Origin: Capnocytophaga sp. oral taxon 338 str. F0234
GTDB lineage: Bacteria; Bacteroidota; Bacteroidia; Flavobacteriales; Flavobacteriaceae
NCBI RefSeq assembly: GCF_000192225.1
Contig: NZ_GL872413.1
Coordinates: forward strand, 80,848-144,847
Direction of reading: 5' to 3'
DNA length: 64,000 nucleotides
How positions within the stretch are numbered: position 1 is the first letter of the stretch; each line of letters starts with the position of its first letter. Below are positions 16,714-49,620 of the stretch, in pieces. Below the pieces are notes generated by a model. That model worked only from the letters and a program-made list of their open reading frames with translations, was not told the DNA's origin and made no database searches. The translations under genes and the position numbers were made by a program.

Positions 16714-17317
16714 TTAATCTTCTCCTATAATATAAAATTTACCTTCATCATCTCTTGTGGCAGAAATTTCATAATAGGAAATGGTTCTCTTTCTTCCTGA
16801 GTAAGTAGTAGAACCACTCTTCTTACGCATAGTTAAATTATAGACTACTTGCATTTTGCCATTCCATTTGACAATGGTCATATCGCGTACGTTGAAGCGA
16901 TTGAAATCCTTTAACTCTTCATTGTTTTCAAGGAATTTATAAAGCTCGGCCGCATCTTTTACCACCATATCGGTATCGATCTCTTCTACTTTGAAAAGGA
17001 GTTAAGTTATCACTAACAGAATCTTCTTGAGGGTTCTGTAGTTTGCCTATTTTCCAATAAGCCTGAGAGATATACTTACCCTCATTTTCAGGATCTTTGA
17101 AAACGGCAGTAAGTCCTTTGAAGGCATCTTCTAAGGGTTTTCCTGTGTGTAGGCTTATTTTGTAGAATTCTTTTCCCACAAAAGGTTGTTCTTTCGCCAG
17201 AATAGCTTTAGCTTCTTCTATTCCTGCTTTTTCTGTCATCTTGTTACCAAAGATAAAGCTACAAGAGGTAAGCACAAAGGTAAGTGCCATACCTAATAAA
17301 AGGGTGATTTTTTTCAT
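16714..17317 (-). pseudogene. Lipoprotein gene with a one-base frameshift
   Basis: The 5' frame (start 17317) encodes MKKITLLLGMALTFVLTSCSF, a lipoprotein signal with lipobox LTSC, and runs to about residue 108 (SDNLTPF) before continuing as an arginine-rich out-of-frame tail ending at 16937. The +1-shifted frame continues as FKVEEIDTDMVVKDAAELYK and stays open to 16714. A run of four T (minus strand; AAAA at 16994-16997 on plus) marks the junction. With three T the frames join into a protein of about 200 residues (TPFKVEEID...). A sequencing error, slippage-based switching or true inactivation are all possible. Function unknown. It is the last gene of the unit starting at 18488, directly after the 228-residue lipoprotein gene. 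Confidence 0.75.
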
Positions 17318-17318
17318 T

Positions 17319-18005
17319 TTATAATTTGATTGGTTTTTTAGTATCTATAAGTGTACCTTCAGCATCGAAGCGGAAAGTAGTTGTCTGGGCAGCCAGTACC
17401 ATGGGTTGGGTACGCACTTCTATCTCAAAGGCTTTCGTCTGGTGGTTACGGCTGATCTCCCAGCTCGTTACAAAGGCACTTTCCTCGGATTCTTGTAGTG
17501 CTTTCTTCAGGATGGAGGGAACCTTTTGTAAAAGAGGCTTGACATCGGAAAGGCGAAACAGTATGTCCTTATAGTCGTCATAGGTAGCCGCAGTCTCATC
17601 GTCTCGCTTGAGCACAAAGGCAGAGCTGCCTTCCTCTCCAAAGATACTGCGATCGCTGTCACAACGTATATAGAAGACCCGAAAAGCACTTGTCTCTACG
17701 TTGGTGAGTACCTTGACCAAAACCTTGGATTCCTTGGCTACTTCATCCAGATCCAAACGGAGCACGTTGGCACCTATGGCATAGAATTCAGCATCTTCGG
17801 CGGATTTGATTTTCCCTGTCTCGGTGAGTTCCTTTAGGATATCATCTATATATCGTGGATAGCTCTCCATATCCGTTCCTATGATCCCTTTGGTAAGGTC
17901 ATACTTAGCCGGTGGAAAAATGGCTTTTTTCCAAAGTCTGAGATATTCACAACTACTAAGGCTAAAAGCCAACACAGCCACTACTAAGAGGGTGAGTTTC
18001 TTCAT
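17319..18005 (-). CDS. Predicted lipoprotein, unknown function
   Basis: 228 residues. The N terminus (MKKLTLLVVAVLAFSLSSCEY) is a lipoprotein signal with Cys19 in the lipobox SLSSC. The mature protein is mixed alpha/beta with no recognised domain. The hydrophobic core VLVKVLTN, AFRVFYIRCD and the C-terminal AAQTTTFRFDAEGTLIDTKKPIKL suggest a beta-sheet ending. It sits between the 155-residue gene (15 bp upstream) and the frameshifted lipoprotein (1 bp downstream), so the three form one transcription unit. Both lipoproteins have similar signal sequences. I do not recognise a family. Confidence 0.75.
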   Translation of the reverse strand: MKKLTLLVVAVLAFSLSSCEYLRLWKKAIFPPAKYDLTKGIIGTDMESYPRYIDDILKELTETGKIKSAEDAEFYAIGANVLRLDLDEVAKESKVLVKVLTNVETSAFRVFYIRCDSDRSIFGEEGSSAFVLKRDDETAATYDDYKDILFRLSDVKPLLQKVPSILKKALQESEESAFVTSWEISRNHQTKAFEIEVRTQPMVLAAQTTTFRFDAEGTLIDTKKPIKL

Positions 18006-18020
18006 ATCAATAGCAGATTT

Positions 18021-18488
18021 TTATTTGTCTTTCTTCCAAAGGGCAGAGATACCTACATTTTGATCTTTCTGTTGTATAGGGTATTTGCTATTGATCGCCT
18101 CCAAGATGTCTCCGTCAAAATCCTTATTACTACCGTAAATGGTTTGGATAATCCATCGCCCGATCATCCCACCTTCGTTATAAAGCCCCTTGAGCCACCA
18201 CTTCATAGTGGTTCGGTCAAAGCCCAAGTAAGTATCCTCGCGAGACATATCGTCGGTCATAGGAGCATACTTTACAGTGATAAAAGTACGGTGGTAGGCA
18301 TTTTTCGCCACGAAGATACGATCCTCCGATGCCGAAGTCCCCAATACCTGTGAAGCTACATTGCCTTTCTTGAGAAACTCCACCTTGTACTTACTGCCTA
18401 ATTTCTCTTTGATTACCTCAAAGATATCTTGCAAAGGCACCTTACCTTCTAAGAAAGTAAGAGTAATGTTTTTGTCTAATAATCCCAT
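18021..18488 (-). CDS. Unrecognised soluble protein, first gene of a putative LytTR target operon
   Basis: 155 residues, no signal peptide or membrane segment, so probably cytoplasmic. It begins MGLLDKNITLTFLEGKVPLQD and is a mixed alpha/beta protein with a notable aromatic cluster (TTMKWWLKGLYNEGGMIGRWI). No known domain was recognised. It heads a three-gene unit with two lipoprotein genes. Its promoter at 18517 carries 9-bp direct repeats around a poly-G run, shared with the 179-residue gene at 19247, which suggests common regulation by the nearby LytTR protein. Confidence 0.72.
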   Translation of the reverse strand: MGLLDKNITLTFLEGKVPLQDIFEVIKEKLGSKYKVEFLKKGNVASQVLGTSASEDRIFVAKNAYHRTFITVKYAPMTDDMSREDTYLGFDRTTMKWWLKGLYNEGGMIGRWIIQTIYGSNKDFDGDILEAINSKYPIQQKDQNVGISALWKKDK

Positions 18489-18516: not shown

Positions 18517-18603
18517 CAAAATTAGATAATAATTCTCAATAAGTTAAAACAAATCAATATCCGCGGGGGGGTGAATATTCGCCTTTAAAATCGCTATATT
18601 CGC
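18517..18603 (-). promoter_or_regulatory. Promoter with three 9-bp direct repeats and a G7 run (putative LytTR operator A)
   Basis: On the minus strand the -7 element TAATTTTG is at 18517-18524, 28 bp before the start at 18488. Upstream are three copies of a 9-mer, written on the plus strand as AATATCCGC (18556-18564), AATATTCGC (18574-18582) and TATATTCGC (18595-18603). Periods are 18 and 21 bp. A run of seven G (18565-18571) lies between the first two. Two 9-bp direct repeats about 12 bp apart is the classical LytTR binding layout; the sequence itself differs from the published consensus, so the link to LytTR is inferred. Confidence 0.65.
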
Positions 18604-18659
18604 AAAAAAGAGGGGGTAGGAAGGTTTTTTACAATTACTGGCTGCATATGCTTACAACA

Positions 18660-18684
18660 AAGGCTGTCTTATCAGGACAGCCTT
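18660..18684 (-). terminator. Terminator-like hairpin after the 179-residue gene
   Basis: A stem AAGGCTGTC / GACAGCCTT (18660-18668 and 18676-18684) with a 7-nt loop, 23 bp beyond the stop of the minus-strand gene. It separates that gene from operator A. Confidence 0.75.
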
Positions 18685-18707
18685 ATATAAGGTTCAGTTA
18701 TGTAGTG

Positions 18708-19247
18708 TTATTTCATAGCTTGTATCATTGCCTTATGCTTATCATACTCAACTCCTGAGATGATTTTTACAGGAGTGATTCCTCTGAAATCCGAAGGAGA
18801 GAAATACTTCATCAGGAGTAAGTAGAATGCTTTTCCTGCTACGTCTTCATAGATGTAAAGCTGAAGCGGTTGGTTATCCTTAGCAGGAATATTGGCGAGT
18901 TCTCTGAAGTTTTCAGCTTCCAAAAAAGCAACTAAGTCCTTCTCGGTCGTAGCTGAGGAATCAAACTTCTTGATGCCTGCTTGTACAATCTTTGTCTGAG
19001 TTTGTTTGTTATAAAAATCAGATCCAAGCCATATGCTAAAACCTGTATATGCCATTCCTATTCCTGCAATAATGCGCCATATCCAGAGTTCTCCTGCGGG
19101 GGTGATTTCGGGATAAATCATTAAGGCAAGGAAGATGGCGAATAGGACACCATTAATGATTTTCTTAGAGGTATTTCCTTTGAGAACAAACTGCTCAGGA
19201 TGAGCTCTGAAGTAAGAAGGTAAATCCTGTGGAATTTCTTTATTCAT
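18708..19247 (-). CDS. Unknown membrane protein, putative LytTR target
   Basis: 179 residues. Two membrane helices (about 29-45, INGVLFAIFLALMIY, and 54-75, LWIWRIIAGIGMAYTGFSIWL) are followed by a soluble domain of about 100 residues with mixed alpha/beta character (KDNQPLQLYIYEDVAGKAFYLLLMKYF). No named family recognised. It is monocistronic, with its own promoter carrying operator B at 19274-19342 and a hairpin terminator at 18660. The matching promoter with the 18488 unit suggests both are switched together, perhaps in an envelope-related response. Confidence 0.75.
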   Translation of the reverse strand: MNKEIPQDLPSYFRAHPEQFVLKGNTSKKIINGVLFAIFLALMIYPEITPAGELWIWRIIAGIGMAYTGFSIWLGSDFYNKQTQTKIVQAGIKKFDSSATTEKDLVAFLEAENFRELANIPAKDNQPLQLYIYEDVAGKAFYLLLMKYFSPSDFRGITPVKIISGVEYDKHKAMIQAMK

Positions 19248-19273
19248 AAAATTTTAATTTAATTATAATAGTG

Positions 19274-19342
19274 CAAAATTAAAAAATAATTCCAAAAATA
19301 TCAAAAAGAATCAATATTCGCTGGGGGGGGGTAAATATTCGC
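19274..19342 (-). promoter_or_regulatory. Promoter with two 9-bp direct repeats and a G9 run (putative LytTR operator B)
   Basis: On the minus strand the -7 element TAATTTTG is at 19274-19281, 26 bp before the start at 19247. Two exact copies of AATATTCGC (plus strand) are at 19313-19321 and 19334-19342, separated by 12 bp that hold nine G (19323-19331). The first half-site is exactly 31 bp from the -7 element, the same as in operator A, and the sequence between is alignable, so the two promoters are homologous. The 9-12-9 layout fits LytTR family binding. Confidence 0.7.
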
Positions 19343-19373
19343 GGTTAAATTGGGAAAAACGATAATTGAAAAG

Positions 19374-19835
19374 CTATTCGCTTCCCATTAACCATTGTTG
19401 CACCTGCTCCCGACGACGTTCGGCTACAGGAATACGCTCACCTGTGATCAGTTCCAAGATGCCTTCTTTAAGATATTTCTTGATATAGTGGCTATTGACC
19501 AAATAGGACTGGTGGCAATGCACGAACTGTGAGGCAGGCAAAAGTTCTTCAAATGACTTGAGCACCTTGCTGACCAATATTTTTTCTCTTCCTTTAAGAA
19601 AAAAAGTTGTATAGCCCTTATCACTCTGTAAGTAGAGAATATTGGCTATAGGGATCAATTCTATACCCTCTGTTGTCTTTAGGGCAAGTCGCTCTATCTT
19701 TTGCTGTTGTATGTGATAGTTTTGGGCATACATCTGTACAAATGCTACCCACTGCTCCCTACACGCCCCCAGTGAATCTGAGGGCAATGTAGCGAAGAAT
19801 TGGTCTATTCTTTGGGTTATTTCTTTTGAAATCAT
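19374..19835 (-). CDS. Stand-alone LytTR DNA-binding regulator
   Basis: 153 residues. An N-terminal helical stretch (about 1-48) lacks the receiver-domain aspartates, so this is not a phosphorylated response regulator. Residues about 50-150 are a LytTR domain: GIELIPIANILYLQSDKGYTTFF, KSFEELLPASQFVHCHQSYLVN, and ERIPVAERRREQVQQWL, the usual recognition features. It starts 2 bp after the fhs stop and is probably co-transcribed with it. The nearby promoters at 19274 and 18517 carry direct repeats with LytTR-like spacing, making them the natural targets. What signal it senses is not visible. Confidence 0.9.
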   Translation of the reverse strand: MISKEITQRIDQFFATLPSDSLGACREQWVAFVQMYAQNYHIQQQKIERLALKTTEGIELIPIANILYLQSDKGYTTFFLKGREKILVSKVLKSFEELLPASQFVHCHQSYLVNSHYIKKYLKEGILELITGERIPVAERRREQVQQWLMGSE

Positions 19836-19837
19836 AA

Positions 19838-21514
19838 TTAACTAAGTCCTGTAATCACCCCTTGATCATCTATATCCATCCCTTCGGCAGCGGGAACACT
19901 CGGCAAACCTGGCATACGAACGGTATCTCCTAAGATTGGAATAAGAAAGCCTGCACCGGAGGCAAACTCAAATTCACGAACGGTTATTTCAAAGTCCGTA
20001 GGACGTGCAAGCTTCTTCTCATCATCGCTGAGTGATTTAGGGGTCTTTACCATACAAATAGGTAGTTTGTCAAAACCTAATTTGCGGATTTGCTTAAGTT
20101 GACTCAGGGCTTTAGTACTATAATTCACTCCTTTTGCTCCATATATATGAGTAGCTATAGTTTTTATTTTTTCCTCCACTGGAGTGGCATGATCATATAA
20201 AGGCGTAAAGTGACTCTCATTACTTTCAGCTATATCCACTACAGCATGAGCAAGTTCCTCAGTGCCTTTTCCTCCTTCACTAAAACCCCGGCTAACAACT
20301 GCCTTCACACCTCTTTCCTTACAAAAAGCTTGGATATAAGTAATTTCCTCCTGACTATCATGAGGAAAGTAGTTAATAGCTACCACCGCCTTAAGCCCAA
20401 AAAGCTGTATATTCTCTATATGTTTTTCTAAGTTAGTAATACCTCTTTTTACACATTCCAAATCAGGAGTATTATATTCCTCCTTCTTAGCTCCACCGTG
20501 GTGGCGCAATGCCCGTATGGTTGCTACAATAACCACTGCATTGGGGGCGAGGCCTGCGGAAGTACACTTAATATTAAGGAACTTCTCTGCTCCAAGATCT
20601 GCCCCAAAACCGGCTTCAGTGACTACATATTCTCCTAAGGAAAGTCCCATTTTGGTTGCTAATACCGTATTAGTACCTTGAGCAATGCTAGCAAAAGGTC
20701 CTCCATGTAAGATAGCTGGATTATTCTCAAGAGTCTGTACTAAGTTTGGCTTGATAGCTTCTTTGAGCAGCAATGCCATCGCCCCTACTACCTTGAGGTC
20801 ACGAGCAAAAACAGGGGAACCATCGTACTTTTTCCCTACATAGATGTTGCCTATACGGCGCTTAAGATCAGAAAAATTCTCTGCTAAGCACAGAATAGCC
20901 ATAATTTCAGAAGCAGGGGTAATATTGAATCCATCTTCACGAGGAATACCATGAGTAACCCCTCCCAAACCTACTACAATATGCCGCAAAGCACGATCAT
21001 TCATATCCATCACTCGCTTCCATACCACTGTACGAGGGTCTATCCCTATGGAATGTGTCTTACTCTGTAAGTTGTTATCAATTACCGCAGCTAAGAGATT
21101 ATTAGCGCGTTCAATAGCTGAAAAATCTCCTGTAAAATGTAAGTTGATATCCTCCATAGGCACTACCTGAGAATAACCTCCACCAGCAGCTCCCCCTTTG
21201 ATACCAAACACAGGTCCTAAAGAAGGTTCCCTTAACACAGCAATAGCTTTCTTGCCTATTCTGTTCAGTCCTTCGGTGAGTCCTATACTCACAGTTGTTT
21301 TACCTTCCCCAGCAGGAGTAGGAGTAATCGCTGTAACGAGCACCAACTTGTGTTGGGCTATCTTCTTTGGATCTATTAGGTGCAAGGGTAGCTTCGCCTT
21401 ATACTTTCCATAAGGGTCTATATCATCCTCTGATATATTTAGTTTCTTAGCTATCTCTTTGATAGACAACATATTCGAATGCTGTGCTATTTCAAGGTCG
21501 GTTGGAAAACTCAT
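19838..21514 (-). CDS. fhs: Formate-tetrahydrofolate ligase
   Basis: 558 residues, full length. It makes 10-formyl-THF from formate, THF and ATP for one-carbon metabolism. The nucleotide-binding loop TPTPAGEGKTT is at about 64-74, followed by the family signatures LREPSLGPVFGIKGGAAGGGYSQ (about 95-117) and the conserved VATIRALRHHGG. Promoter at 21534. The LytTR gene follows after 2 bp, so the regulator is expressed with a housekeeping enzyme. Confidence 0.97.
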   Translation of the reverse strand: MSFPTDLEIAQHSNMLSIKEIAKKLNISEDDIDPYGKYKAKLPLHLIDPKKIAQHKLVLVTAITPTPAGEGKTTVSIGLTEGLNRIGKKAIAVLREPSLGPVFGIKGGAAGGGYSQVVPMEDINLHFTGDFSAIERANNLLAAVIDNNLQSKTHSIGIDPRTVVWKRVMDMNDRALRHIVVGLGGVTHGIPREDGFNITPASEIMAILCLAENFSDLKRRIGNIYVGKKYDGSPVFARDLKVVGAMALLLKEAIKPNLVQTLENNPAILHGGPFASIAQGTNTVLATKMGLSLGEYVVTEAGFGADLGAEKFLNIKCTSAGLAPNAVVIVATIRALRHHGGAKKEEYNTPDLECVKRGITNLEKHIENIQLFGLKAVVAINYFPHDSQEEITYIQAFCKERGVKAVVSRGFSEGGKGTEELAHAVVDIAESNESHFTPLYDHATPVEEKIKTIATHIYGAKGVNYSTKALSQLKQIRKLGFDKLPICMVKTPKSLSDDEKKLARPTDFEITVREFEFASGAGFLIPILGDTVRMPGLPSVPAAEGMDIDDQGVITGLS

Positions 21515-21533
21515 AAAAATAAAATTGAAAGGA

Positions 21534-21541
21534 CAAAAATA
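21534..21541 (-). promoter_or_regulatory. -7 element TATTTTTG before fhs
   Basis: CAAAAATA on the plus strand reads TATTTTTG on the minus strand, 19 bp before the fhs ATG. Confidence 0.65.
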
Positions 21542-21716
21542 CGAAATTTAATGACAAATAACAAATTTAACACCTACAAATTAGATTAACAAAAGGTAAT
21601 TTTTTCTTTTGGGACTATCTGAACTTTGTTATTCTTTAGGATACGACAATATATGAGACAATTTGCCGATTTACCAAAGAGGTAATAAATCAAATAAAAA
21701 ATTAAAATTTCTGTTC

Positions 21717-21754
21717 TAACCATTTGGTTAATTCAAAAACTCGTTGTACCTTTG
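21717..21754 (+). promoter_or_regulatory. TetR promoter with palindromic operator
   Basis: The -7 element TACCTTTG is at 21747-21754. A palindrome TAACCATTTGGTTA (21717-21730; 6-bp arms, 2-bp centre) lies 16 bp upstream, over the expected -33 region. The same palindrome occurs at 22480-22493 before tolC, so it is most likely the operator of the TetR encoded next. Confidence 0.8.
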
Positions 21755-21776
21755 CCCTCGAAAATCAGAAGTAACG

Positions 21777-22391
21777 ATGAAGAAGACAAAAGATATAAGC
21801 ACCGAAGAACGCATCAAAGCCGCTGCCCGCAAAGTCTTTCATCAGAAAGGTTTTGCAGGTACACGTACTCGCGACATTGCCGAAGAAGCGGGTATCAACC
21901 ACGCGATGCTCAACTATTATTTCCGCAGTAAAGAAAAGCTCTTTGAAATGGTAATGATGGAAACAATGGCGCAATTCTTTAAAGGAGTAAACCTTATGCT
22001 GAATGACGAAAGTACCTCTCTCGATGAGAAAATAGACCTCATCGTCTCTAACTACGTCGATTTACTCCTCAAAGAACCCGAATTACCTACCTTTATACTC
22101 AATGAGGTGCGTCCTAACCCGCAAGCATTTGTAGAGCAAAACCCTATTAAAGAGGCACTTACTCACTCTGTGCTCACCCGTCAATATGCCGAAGCCGTAG
22201 CTCGTGGCGAAATCACAGAGCCTAACCTAATGCAAGCTATCCTAAACGTCATCGGGTTGGTGATATTTCCTTTCATTGCAAAACCTATCCTAACCTCAAT
22301 TGTCAACATACCCGAAGAACAGTACAAAGCCCTAATGCTCCAGCGTAAAACCCTTATCCCCCAATGGATTAAAGCAATACTATGGAAATAA
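21777..22391 (+). CDS. TetR family repressor of the exporter operon
   Basis: 204 residues from ATG 21777; a longer frame back to a TTG at 21744 would overlap the promoter. The N-terminal helix-turn-helix is typical: ERIKAAARKVFHQKG then GTRTRDIAEEAGINHAMLNYYF and SKEKLFEMV. The C-terminal ligand domain is unassigned and helical. It is followed by tolC and hlyD, like CecR (YbiH) before ybhGFSR in E. coli, with tolC added. Its operator is found before itself and before tolC, so autorepression and control of the pump are likely. GC is higher than in neighbouring core genes. Confidence 0.9.
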   Translation: MKKTKDISTEERIKAAARKVFHQKGFAGTRTRDIAEEAGINHAMLNYYFRSKEKLFEMVMMETMAQFFKGVNLMLNDESTSLDEKIDLIVSNYVDLLLKEPELPTFILNEVRPNPQAFVEQNPIKEALTHSVLTRQYAEAVARGEITEPNLMQAILNVIGLVIFPFIAKPILTSIVNIPEEQYKALMLQRKTLIPQWIKAILWK

Positions 22392-22479
22392 TAATACGAT
22401 TTCTCTTAAACAATTGTCTTTGCGGATTGTCCCCCTTCGGAGGAACGGAGGCTAAATAACATTTTTTTTATCTATACCC

Positions 22480-22493
22480 TAACCAAATGGTTA
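22480..22493 (+). promoter_or_regulatory. Second TetR operator, upstream of tolC
   Basis: TAACCAAATGGTTA has the same 6-bp arms as the palindrome at 21717 with the central TT replaced by AA, that is, the identical site on the other strand. It lies 117 bp before the tolC start. No clear -7 element was found between them. Confidence 0.78.
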
Positions 22494-22565
22494 AACTAAT
22501 TTATTAACACTATAATACCCCTAAAAGCCTTAATTCATCAGTCTTTTACTCTGTTTTATGGCTTG

Positions 22566-22588
22566 CCCCCTCTCCGAAAGAGAGGGGG
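22566..22588. repeat. REP-like palindrome
   Basis: A perfect 9-bp stem CCCCCTCTC / GAGAGGGGG with loop CGAAA, followed by GGGGGTGAGG. It sits 22 bp before tolC. It belongs with the related palindrome at 34304 and resembles the widespread CCCTCTCC...GGAGAGGG REP-type sequence. It could also affect tolC translation. Confidence 0.7.
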
Positions 22589-22610
22589 AACGGGGGTGAG
22601 GATTGCCACT

Positions 22611-23903
22611 ATGAAACACCTTATCCTAACACTCACCGCATCTATAGCCCTCACTCTCACCGCGCAAGCGCAGGCTATCCTTTCTTTGGAGGACTGCTAT
22701 CGTCTTACTCGTGAGAACTACCCTACCGTCAAAAAGCTCGATTTGGTAGCCAAAACCGAAGGCTATACCCTTGCCAATGCCAATCGTGCTTACCTCCCAC
22801 AGGTCTCTATCCTAGGGCAAGCCACTTACCAGTCGGAAGTAACCGACCTCTCTAAAACCATTGTAGGGGCACTCCCTCTGCCTCCTAACGTCTCTTTGCC
22901 TACTATCGACAAGGAGCAATACAAGGTCGTGGGCGAGGTAAGCCAACTCCTCTACGGGGGTGGTGCGATTCACAGTCAGAAGGCAGTCGCCAAAGCTCAA
23001 AGTGCTGTCCAAATGCAAGCCGTCGAAACCCAATTGTACACCCTAAAACAACGTGTAAGCAACCTATATTTTGGGGTGCTCCTCATCGATGCCCAGTTAT
23101 CGCAAAACCGCCTTAATATCGAAACGCTTGAGTCACAACTTAAGAAGGCGGAAGTAGCCCTAAAAAACGGTACGACCCTCCCCAGTAATGTAGACGAGCT
23201 TAAAGCTGAAATCCTCCGTGTAAGAATGCAAACCACCGAGTACGAAGCCACCCAAGCTACCTATTTGCAAATGCTGTCTACTTTCATAGGCAAAGAGCTC
23301 ACCAACGCTTCCCAGCTCGCACAGCCTGCGCCTCAATCCCAGTCTCAAACCCTAAGTACCGAAATTTTTCGTCCTGAACTCAAAGGATTTCAGCTACAGG
23401 AATCGTTGCTTAAAGCGCAAGAAAAACAGCTCAGTAGCGAATATATACCTAAGCTCAGTGCGTTTTTTCAAGGCGGTTACGGGCGTCCCACACTCAATAT
23501 GCTCAGCAACCAAGCGGATTTCTACTACATCACAGGGCTTCGTTTGCAGTGGAATTTAAGTCCACTATACAACCTGTCGAGCAAGAAACATATCCTACAC
23601 CTGAACCGAGAAAGTCTCACAGCCGACCGCCAAGCCTTCTTACTCAACACAAAACTCGAACTCACTCAGCAGTCCGAGCAACTCAAAAAGCTACAAAAGC
23701 TGATAGAACAAGATGAAGCATCGGTAACTTTGCGCCACTCTGTCGCTAAATCTGCTGAAGTCCAGTTAGACAACGGGGTTATCACCACTCACGAATACTT
23801 GCAGAAAGTCAATGCTTGGCATCTTGCCCAGCAAACACTTATCCTGCACCAAATACAACTCCTCCAAGCTCAAGAAAATCATCAATTAATTATAGGAAAA
23901 TGA
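22611..23903 (+). CDS. TolC family outer-membrane efflux protein
   Basis: 430 residues from ATG 22611; an in-frame extension upstream runs through the REP-like palindrome and is not plausible. A signal peptide covers about 1-20 (ILTLTASIALTLTAQAQA). The rest has the two-fold repeat of long coiled-coil helices and short barrel strands of TolC channels: LSLEDCYRLTRENYPTVKK and, in the second half, QQSEQLKKLQKLIEQDE and LDNGVITTHEYLQKVNAW. It forms the outer-membrane duct. Its stop overlaps the hlyD start by ATGA, so translation is coupled. Confidence 0.92.
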   Translation: MKHLILTLTASIALTLTAQAQAILSLEDCYRLTRENYPTVKKLDLVAKTEGYTLANANRAYLPQVSILGQATYQSEVTDLSKTIVGALPLPPNVSLPTIDKEQYKVVGEVSQLLYGGGAIHSQKAVAKAQSAVQMQAVETQLYTLKQRVSNLYFGVLLIDAQLSQNRLNIETLESQLKKAEVALKNGTTLPSNVDELKAEILRVRMQTTEYEATQATYLQMLSTFIGKELTNASQLAQPAPQSQSQTLSTEIFRPELKGFQLQESLLKAQEKQLSSEYIPKLSAFFQGGYGRPTLNMLSNQADFYYITGLRLQWNLSPLYNLSSKKHILHLNRESLTADRQAFLLNTKLELTQQSEQLKKLQKLIEQDEASVTLRHSVAKSAEVQLDNGVITTHEYLQKVNAWHLAQQTLILHQIQLLQAQENHQLIIGK

Positions 23904-47490: not shown

Positions 47491-49056
47491 ATGACCCTAA
47501 CAGAAGCTAAAGAATATGTACTCTATGAAGCAAGCAGAGAAAAAAGAATCACCCTACGCAACCTTATTATAGTGATTATTTTATTGATCGTTGCTATATG
47601 CTTAGTTGTGAAATATCTACTACCTTTACTCTCTCAGCAAGCGAGTGAAGCCCCTTCGTATGTGAAATGGCTCCTCCCCATTGCATTACTAATTTCGGTA
47701 AGCTACCCTCTTATAAAAGTTTGGAAAATTCTCAAAAGAAAAGAACAGATAGAGGAAGCCTTTTCCCTTATTGGACAAGGAGAGGAATGCCGTATTATTA
47801 ATGAAGCAGATGACTACCTTACTGTAATTCCTTTTGGGAAACGTTCTCGGTTAAACCTTGACCCTATTGCATACTTAAATATTGTTGTTAAGAACAAAAC
47901 ATACGTCCTTCCTATGCATTATCGTTCAGGTAGTGCTGAACTCAAGCGAGTAATTACAGGAGCGGATGAGGGAGCATACAAAGAGGTTATGCATGAACTC
48001 TATCACAAGGATGAATCCTTTGGTATAGAGAATCCAAAGATATCAACCCAGGAAACAATTATCCTTAAACCTATCTCCGAGTTCCGTACCTATGCTAAGG
48101 ACACATTCGGAACAATGCTCACTTCCATGGAAAAAGGACGTAACACTAATAAGAATATGTTTGTAGTACAGGTGATTATCGCTTTTGCTTTCATTGCTGT
48201 AATGATTTTCTTAGGAATTACTGGCAGGTTAAGCTTCTCTAATGGACAAAGTGTACTTTACTTTGTATTAGGATTCGTGATCATTACCTTCCTATATAGC
48301 TTCGGGATGTCCCGTTATGCTAAGAAAAAACTAGAAGGAACTGAGGACTATACCCAATTAAAAAAGAATATTTTTGGAAAATTGGTACATTATATTAGTC
48401 CTGATTTTCAGTATATAGAGAATGGGCATATAGGGATAGGAGACCTGCTATCCTCCTATCTTTTTCGTCAAGAACGATATAACGTAACAGGAGGAGATCA
48501 AATTGTAGGTTGGTATAATGGAATTCCTTTTCAATCCTGTAACCTTACTGTCACTTTTCGTCCTACCATACGTGGAGAGAAAGAACCTGATGATGTAGCT
48601 TTCTATGGGAATTACTTTGTAGCACGTTCACCCAAAACCTTTGAACACCCGATTATAATTCATCCTGTAAAAAGCTTTTTTGGGACTATCAATGATAATG
48701 AAATTAGGACTTATCTCAATCAAGGAGGAGAGAGAATTCGATTGGAAGACCCTGAGTTTCAAAAACTATTCGAGGTATACTGCGACGATCAGATCACAGC
48801 TCGTTATGTGCTAACACCTGCATTCATGGAACGCCTCAAAAAACTTAATGAGCGTTATAAAGGGCAAGTATATATCGCTATTAATTCCGATAATATAGTC
48901 ATTGCTACCAATCGAGGAAATATACTCTCCAAAGCAAACTATTCTCCCGCAGCAATGCTCTTCCAAAAGATAAACCTTGCTTTTGTAGAAGATGTATATG
49001 AAGAACTTATAGAACAGTTACAGATGATAGATACCCTTGAATTAAACAGAAAATAA
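47491..49056 (+). CDS. DUF3137 membrane protein, LemA partner
   Basis: 521 residues. Two pairs of membrane helices (about 24-44 and 57-75; then about 225-248 and 256-278) are separated by soluble parts. The C-terminal region contains the DUF3137 signature: RIRLEDPEFQKLFEVYCDDQITARYVLTPAFMERL (about 410-445). DUF3137 proteins regularly occur next to LemA, and both are thought to act in the envelope, though no mechanism is known. LemA follows after 12 bp, an operon by spacing. Confidence 0.88.
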   Translation: MTLTEAKEYVLYEASREKRITLRNLIIVIILLIVAICLVVKYLLPLLSQQASEAPSYVKWLLPIALLISVSYPLIKVWKILKRKEQIEEAFSLIGQGEECRIINEADDYLTVIPFGKRSRLNLDPIAYLNIVVKNKTYVLPMHYRSGSAELKRVITGADEGAYKEVMHELYHKDESFGIENPKISTQETIILKPISEFRTYAKDTFGTMLTSMEKGRNTNKNMFVVQVIIAFAFIAVMIFLGITGRLSFSNGQSVLYFVLGFVIITFLYSFGMSRYAKKKLEGTEDYTQLKKNIFGKLVHYISPDFQYIENGHIGIGDLLSSYLFRQERYNVTGGDQIVGWYNGIPFQSCNLTVTFRPTIRGEKEPDDVAFYGNYFVARSPKTFEHPIIIHPVKSFFGTINDNEIRTYLNQGGERIRLEDPEFQKLFEVYCDDQITARYVLTPAFMERLKKLNERYKGQVYIAINSDNIVIATNRGNILSKANYSPAAMLFQKINLAFVEDVYEELIEQLQMIDTLELNRK

Positions 49057-49068
49057 ATCGTAAAAACA

Positions 49069-49620
49069 ATGATAACATATATTTTAGTAGCTGTGAGCAT
49101 ACTCTTGCTCATTTATATAGTAATAGCTTTCAATAGGCTCTCCAAGCGTCGTAACCAGATAGAGAATGCTATTTCTTCTTTGGATTCACTCTTTATCCAA
49201 CGAGCAGATCTAATTCCTAACCTTATCACTACCACTAAGGAGTATATGAACTACGAACAGGAGACAATAGCTCAAATCACCCAATTGCGTACACCTGTAG
49301 TAACAGATAAGGAGAATCCCTACTTACAATCAGAAGAGGGAGATAAAACCCTTATGAACATTATGGCACGAGCAGAATCCTATCCTGAACTAAAGGCAAG
49401 TGCACAGTTTGTCCAACTACAACGAGCCTTCACTGAGTGTGAGGAACAACTCTCCGCAGGCAGGCGTTACCTAAGTGCATCTATTACGGATTATAATGAT
49501 GCTATGATCACTTTCCCGTCCAATGTAATAGCTGCTATTTTTGGATTTTCTAAGTATCAATGGCAATATGCAACTGCAAAACAACGCACTGCAGTAGATG
49601 CCAAAGAATTATTTAGATAG
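49069..49620 (+). CDS. lemA: LemA family protein
   Basis: 183 residues with one N-terminal membrane helix (about 2-21) and a long four-helix bundle, as in LemA. Family motifs: NRLSKRRNQIENAISSLDSLFIQRADLIPNLI (about 22-53), YNDAMITFPSNVIAAIFGF (about 140-158). LemA proteins are membrane-anchored with unknown activity and are often linked to DUF3137, as here. Its last 8 bp overlap the convergent hemN gene. Confidence 0.92.
   Translation: MITYILVAVSILLLIYIVIAFNRLSKRRNQIENAISSLDSLFIQRADLIPNLITTTKEYMNYEQETIAQITQLRTPVVTDKENPYLQSEEGDKTLMNIMARAESYPELKASAQFVQLQRAFTECEEQLSAGRRYLSASITDYNDAMITFPSNVIAAIFGFSKYQWQYATAKQRTAVDAKELFR

Follow-up and report, generated by a model that had tools for sequence, protein, structure and literature searches.

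How could a LytTR regulator that carries no receiver domain control two neighbouring promoters whose direct repeats are held apart by runs of cytosine? The question is raised by a locus in the genome (2.55 Mb) of Capnocytophaga sp. oral taxon 338 str. F0234, and it is considered here within a stretch of 64,000 nucleotides, referred to throughout as the window, and across the genus and family. The preliminary description of this DNA had proposed a local LytTR regulon with two matching promoters and had missed the C-runs (C9 and C7) in the spacers of the repeats.

The LytTR regulator and its lost partners

The locus reads along the minus strand in the order formate-tetrahydrofolate ligase (FTHFS), LytTR, operator B, memb, operator A, cyt and two lipoprotein-like genes. 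The LytTR gene (19374..19835, minus strand; ORF and Pfam) encodes a protein of 153 aa, of which residues 57-149 match the Pfam LytTR domain (PF04397) above the cut-off with an E-value of 1.1e-19. The protein also matches the solved chain 3d6w_A at 3.6e-10, and its DNA-binding domain places it in the LytTR family. The Pfam scan returned no match to a receiver domain in it, which bears out the earlier claim of a stand-alone regulator. The receiver and cognate kinase that mark a two-component system are both missing at the locus, where the gene directly upstream of LytTR is not a kinase but FTHFS (19838..21514, minus strand; ORF and Pfam). The LytTR gene starts 2 bp past the end of the FTHFS gene, and the two are probably co-transcribed.

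Matches to the LytTR protein at an E-value of 1e-3 occur in 13 of the 20 genus genomes. In a genus tree built from 20 of 21 rows, six orthologs group in a single clade (100/99), to the exclusion of the two other LytTR groups that the genus has. In the window genome, Capnocytophaga sp. oral taxon 863 F0517 (taxon 863) and C. gingivalis ATCC 33624, the LytTR gene is preceded by FTHFS and memb is present. In G018, G011 and G004 memb is absent, and the ortholog is 245 aa long and lies immediately downstream of a 635-aa gene. Pfam finds a receiver and a LytTR domain in the 245-aa protein of G018 and His_kinase, plus TPR below the cut-off, in its 635-aa neighbour; the assignments of kinase and receiver in G011 and G004 follow from gene size, order and resemblance, Pfam having been applied to G018 only. 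The LytTR proteins of the window and of taxon 863 align to the C-terminal part only of the G018 regulator. At the locus itself, the signal input was therefore lost or replaced in the window lineage. The loss is evident only from the relatives and lay beyond the sequence on which the preliminary description was based.

Some further variation surrounds the regulator. In C. gingivalis the LytTR gene (L026 8001-8452) matches in two reading frames, and a frame of 130 aa keeps the LytTR part. Outside the genus, a search for relatives of cyt among 397 family genomes yielded, besides the window genome, only G153 (L097 7490-8358), which retains a homolog of cyt and a gene resembling a kinase, with a decayed regulator stretch lying between the two. 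The half-site core and the -7 motif described below were looked for in 1.1 kb of this G153 locus, and neither was found there.

Two operators with direct repeats

Operator B (19313-19342, minus strand) has the form GCGAATATT-N12-GCGAATATT, that is, two exact copies with a period of 21 bp (9-12-9). Its distal half-site GCGAATATT (19334..19342) is followed by a 12-bp spacer that reads TA-C9-A (19322..19333) and by the proximal half-site GCGAATATT (19313..19321), next to which stands GATT. The -7 element of the memb promoter, TAATTTTG (19274..19281, minus strand), lies 31 bp past the proximal half-site. Operator A, on the same strand, has the form GCGAATATA-N12-GCGAATATT-N9-GCGGATATT, with the starts spaced by 21 and 18 bp. 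It comprises a distal half-site GCGAATATA (18595..18603) at 21 bp from the middle one, the middle half-site GCGAATATT (18574..18582), a 9-bp spacer CA-C7 (18565..18573), which is 3 bp below the 12-bp standard, and a proximal half-site GCGGATATT (18556..18564), again followed by GATT. The -7 element of the cyt promoter, likewise TAATTTTG (18517..18524, minus strand), is also found 31 bp past the proximal half-site. Arithmetic at 10.5 bp per turn puts the 18-bp period of operator A roughly a quarter of a helical turn off register.

The repeats of the GCGAATATT type at 31 bp before both -7 boxes had been noted previously, and their coordinates and spacings are confirmed, as are the two exact copies 12 bp apart at operator B. 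The three copies given for operator A do have periods of 18 and 21 bp, but two of the three carry one mismatch that went unmentioned. LytTR-type operators are recognised by 9-bp direct repeats with a 12-bp (11-13) spacer upstream of a core promoter, and AgrA and ComE are LytTR response regulators with operators of that kind. The 9-12-9 layout holds for operator B and for the distal and middle half-sites of operator A, but not for the middle and proximal pair of operator A, which is separated by 9 bp; it holds as well for the relatives of these sites in five further genomes. Within the window, GCGAATATT with at most one mismatch occurs 29 times against 15.85 (sd 4.05) in shuffled sequence, and none of 100 shuffles reaches 29. 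Half-site pairs 20-23 bp apart, with at most two mismatches per half, number three in the window, and the best two are operators A and B.

The DUF3137 and LemA genes of the window (47491-49620) were considered as members of the regulon and rejected, there being no half-site pair at that place. DUF3137 and LemA-like genes adjoin the locus in taxon 863, C. gingivalis, G018 and G004 (confirmed by Pfam for G018 only) and are about 28 kb away here.

Conservation of the repeat in the genus

The pattern GCGAATATT-N12-GCGAATATTGA, with at most three mismatches, was searched in 20 Capnocytophaga genomes with the reversed pattern as control. There were 18 matches, of which 8 are at the orthologous LytTR locus, and the repeat with its 21-bp period is present at that locus in all six genomes that have the ortholog. 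The preliminary description had set in advance that repeats not conserved where the regulator and its neighbours are kept would speak against it; they are conserved. Away from the LytTR locus, 10 matches stand against 9 of the control, and a wider regulon is therefore not supported for a fixed 12-bp spacer and at most three mismatches, in line with the regulon being local, as originally suggested. In G011 the LytTR gene and the repeat sit on two contigs, and G018 served as the model for joining them: the LytTR gene is followed by a transposase-like stretch, and the operator opens another contig, with cyt after it as in G018.

All 7 operators have their proximal half-site 31 or 32 bp away from the TAnnTTTG box, and G004 has three half-sites in steps of 21 bp. 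The locus-specific repeat in all six genomes, together with the constant distance to the -7 box, supports the identification of the site as a putative conserved LytTR-type operator with the consensus NCGAATATTGA and a position fixed relative to the promoter. Such a fixed distance would fit an activator that touches RNA polymerase. The 12-bp spacers read TA-C9-A in the window, TA-C9-T in taxon 863, TACCCATCTCAC in C. gingivalis, TACCCAACTTCC in G018 and G011, and AAATAATAACTA in G004; the length is thus steady at 12 bp while the sequence varies.

Runs of cytosine in the spacers

The tract and its flanks in the window read GCGAATATTTA-Cn-GCGAATATTGA. A pattern of half-site, C-run and half-site has three matches in 2 of the 20 genomes, all at these operators, and none in the control; in viral contigs the C-run operator had no match. 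In the unmasked sequence of the window genome (parts are masked, one such stretch being noted), no C/G run reaches a length of 9 apart from the C9 of operator B. Ten C/G runs of at least 8 were counted in the same sequence, eight of them within stop-free frames of at least 300 codons; of the remaining two, one adjoins a masked stretch and the other is operator B. Taxon 863 has two C/G runs of at least 9, one being its operator. C. gingivalis and G004 have the operator without a C/G run of at least 6 in it. The FTHFS proteins of taxon 863 and C. gingivalis are 96.6% identical, and those of the two are 91.2 and 91.6% identical to that of the window species; as taxon 863 and C. gingivalis are thus mutually closest, the C-run either disappeared from C. 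gingivalis or arose on two occasions.

One mark of phase variation by simple-sequence repeats is a homopolymer placed where its length should alter expression. The operator runs answer to this by position and rarity only, the effect of spacer length being borrowed from another LytTR site (SilA). The lengths compared here come from one genome per species, with C7 and C9 belonging to two operators of one genome, and homopolymer lengths in assemblies may carry sequencing error.

A C9 tract of G015 that precedes GAATATAGATT (L080) was considered as an operator and set aside, as by eye it has no 21-bp upstream partner and its distance to the -7 box differs. About 19 of the 76 C/G runs of at least 9 in the genus have, by eye, flanks like TTGATTATCAATGnTTTA-C9-nnTACTTTTTTGG and lie in long stop-free frames (L070, L079, L081, L084, L089, L113, L115, L116, L120, L121, L128, L141, L144, L145, L148, L149, L153, L155 and L156); they may mark a repeated gene family whose coding sequence contains poly-C. 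Very long poly-C tracts are C21 at G011:C23:124420-124440 and C17 at G014:C34:2808-2824.

Target genes and their homopolymer promoters

The gene behind operator B, memb (18708..19247, minus strand; ORF, Pfam and hydropathy), encodes 179 aa with a hydrophobic N-terminal part. It had been described as a two-helix membrane protein; hydropathy gives one clear hydrophobic stretch, with 19-residue windows above 1.5 starting at residues 26-34, and the second helix is discerned by eye only. Behind operator A lie cyt (18021..18488, minus strand; ORF and Pfam), which encodes a predicted soluble protein of 155 aa, and two further genes of the operon on the same strand whose products were, as previously, judged lipoprotein-like by eye. 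One of these (17319..18005; ORF) encodes 228 aa. The other (16714..17317; ORFs) is split over two overlapping frames, 16937-17317 and 16714-16968; in taxon 863 it is one frame of 197 aa. No target gene reaches the cut-off of Pfam or NCBIfam (the small second piece of the split gene was left out), which agrees with the earlier remark that they belong to no recognised family.

Both genes are sparsely distributed. With the window genome counted in each figure, cyt is found in 5 of the 20 genus genomes and in 2 of the 397 family genomes; memb is found in 4 of the 20, and eight genomes altogether have cyt or memb. A C/G run of at least 7 is present in the promoter of cyt or memb, or of the operon, in six of these eight: C7 and C9 in the window, C9 in taxon 863, G8 in G018 and G011, G9 in G009, and G8 in G015. 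In the last four genomes the G-run stands immediately before the -7 box, and two of them, G009 and G015, are without a LytTR ortholog. The pattern G8-N4-9-TAnnTTTG gives 12 overlapping matches, which amount to 10 distinct sites, in 8 of the 20 genus genomes, none of them in the window genome, and its reversed form has no match. By position, four of these sites precede cyt or memb, three precede genes that appear by eye to be lipoprotein- or outer-membrane-like, two lack a clear gene and the last is within an open frame. The cyt and memb genes are hence repeatedly under homopolymer promoters of two layouts, one with a C-run in the operator and the other with poly-G beside the -7 box.

Poly-G core promoters are often preceded by TTTAAC repeats in steps of 11-12 bp, in the form TTTAACA...TTAACAAAT-Gn-TAAA-N4-TAnnTTTG (L162, L163, L164, L165, L166, L169, L171 and L172), and several of these loci are before lipoprotein- or outer-membrane-like genes. 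In G010 the run of a poly-G core promoter is G15.

A proposed slippage-prone spacing and the alternatives to it

The best reading of the locus, and one that we hold to be mildly probable, is that the spacing of half-sites within the LytTR operators is prone to slippage. The regulator, the conservation of the repeat, the -7 spacing and the C-runs with their rarity are observations of the present analysis, and the criticality of spacer length is taken from other LytTR sites. The stand-alone LytTR protein would be what remains of a response regulator of the receiver-LytTR form, and the kinase next to it would have been lost. It would bind, probably as a dimer, to NCGAATATT-N12-NCGAATATT repeats ending 31-32 bp upstream of the -7 box, and when bound it would activate memb and the operon of cyt and the lipoprotein-like genes. 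The C-run of the spacer may gain or lose bases through slippage, and the change in spacer length would shift the half-sites in or out of helical register, by which each promoter would be switched or tuned. Operator B (C9, 12 bp) would be in register and the promoter-proximal pair of operator A (C7, 9 bp) out of it, the upstream pair of operator A (21 bp) staying in register. Since this upstream pair is retained, operator A may not be off; it may work via that pair, or it may be decaying.

Published sites suggest that a spacer of this kind is sensitive. For example, one nucleotide inserted or deleted in the spacer of the SilA site is reported to have eliminated promoter activity (PMC2766830), and the 12-bp spacer is called crucial for dimeric binding of PlnC/PlnD (PMC2714321). 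Likewise, the Bordetella fimX promoter has C7 and C8 alleles among strains with a 3.8-fold difference in transcript (PMC1891110), so runs of such length do vary. It follows from the two lines of data that the C-run sits where slippage should matter. The repeats of LytTR Regulatory Systems (LRS) are mostly 12 bp apart, a minority of natural sites having 11 or 13 (PMC6193735); hence some regulators may tolerate a change of one base better than others. Against switching, C9 is equal in two species and G8 is equal in the close genomes G018 and G011, which a fixed spacer fits as well, and C. gingivalis and G004 keep the operator without any C/G run.

It is possible, if doubtful, that these are fixed, ordinary LytTR operators in which the C-run is a length-constrained filler or a shape-helping spacer selected at 12 bp, operator A being partly decayed or a three-site operator. 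The C9 is identical in two species despite 79% DNA identity of their FTHFS genes, 12 bp are kept without a long run in C. gingivalis, G018 and G011, and the 21-bp pair is retained at operator A. However, a mere filler would not need the longest C/G run of the genome, the two operators have two lengths, and four genomes without a run in the operator have C/G runs for the same target genes in the form of poly-G beside the -7 box. Binding of the repeats by another regulator, such as the second LytTR protein that does exist in the genome, with the neighbouring gene being incidental, is very improbable: the other two LytTR groups occur in genomes without repeats above the control, and 6 of 6 repeat-bearing genomes have this LytTR clade at the locus.

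A further account concerns the lost input and is compatible with slippage, so that the probabilities of the two overlap. It holds that the stand-alone LytTR protein is kept inactive by the adjacent memb, which replaced the lost histidine kinase, as in an LRS, a system made of a LytTR protein and a membrane inhibitor (PMC6193735). The stand-alone LytTR co-occurs with memb in 3 of 3 genomes, and the receiver-LytTR form has an upstream 635-aa kinase-type gene (a kinase by Pfam in G018 only) and no memb in 3 of 3. As in an LRS, a receiver-less LytTR lies beside a membrane protein lacking enzymatic domains, the membrane nature of memb being predicted from its one hydrophobic stretch, and the one-carbon enzyme next door recalls the link of BrsRM to purines in a heading of the same source (PMC6193735). 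Yet we regard this account as rather unlikely. The direct repeats upstream of the LytTR operon that go with positive autoregulation of an LRS are missing, as no match to GCGAATATT with at most one mismatch occurs in 19647-23436, before the LytTR gene; the operator lies instead between LytTR and memb. Moreover, memb has no match to DUF3021 or DUF2154, and G015 carries memb without a LytTR ortholog.

Relation to known regulatory systems

The operators of PlnC/PlnD and SilA resemble those described here: they too lie close upstream of a core promoter and consist of direct repeats of 9 or 10 bp spaced by 11 or 12 bp, and in them the length of the spacer is critical. The operators of LytTR response regulators differ from the present ones, in which the half-site is NCGAATATT, the regulator is receiver-less and the spacer is a C-run in two species. 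The LRS (HdrRM, BrsRM, and LRS-like operons of Bacteroides), share with this locus a receiver-less LytTR whose neighbour is a small membrane protein, as well as direct repeats ahead of a promoter (PMC6193735). In contrast to them, no repeat precedes the LytTR gene here, the membrane protein is without LRS domains, and the repeat precedes the gene of the membrane protein.

For a variable tract within a promoter, the closest of the precedents compared here are nadA/NadR of Neisseria and fim of Bordetella. The tract of nadA is made of TAAA units. This tract separates operators of a single regulator, and regulation changes with the number of repeats (PMC2791445); there, distinct repressor operators flank the tract, whereas here the homopolymer parts the halves of a single bipartite site, the protein bound would be an activator, and the effect would be on half-site phasing. 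Similarly, Bordetella fim carries a poly-C stretch upstream of its promoter, and transcription depends on how long that stretch is (PMC1891110), but that run sets the distance from the activator region to the -10 element, while the run in the window parts the half-sites and the distance to the -7 box is fixed. Among the matches listed from the open-licence literature, none dealt with a phase-variable LytTR site or with homopolymer switches of Capnocytophaga.

Significance for Capnocytophaga

If the slippage reading is true, phase variation would act on the phasing of half-sites inside one transcription-factor site, with a clean rule by which a 12-bp spacer is on and other lengths are off or weaker. 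The wider proposition, which we consider a little less probable than its opposite, is that a two-component system was rebuilt as a stochastic switch: the receiver and kinase would have been lost, the C-run would set the binding of the LytTR dimer for each promoter, and a poly-G switch in the core promoter would serve elsewhere in the genus. The locus flags a gene set of oral Capnocytophaga that is repeatedly under homopolymer promoters and, if the proposed switching is true, hints at a route by which a signalling pathway may degenerate into random switching.
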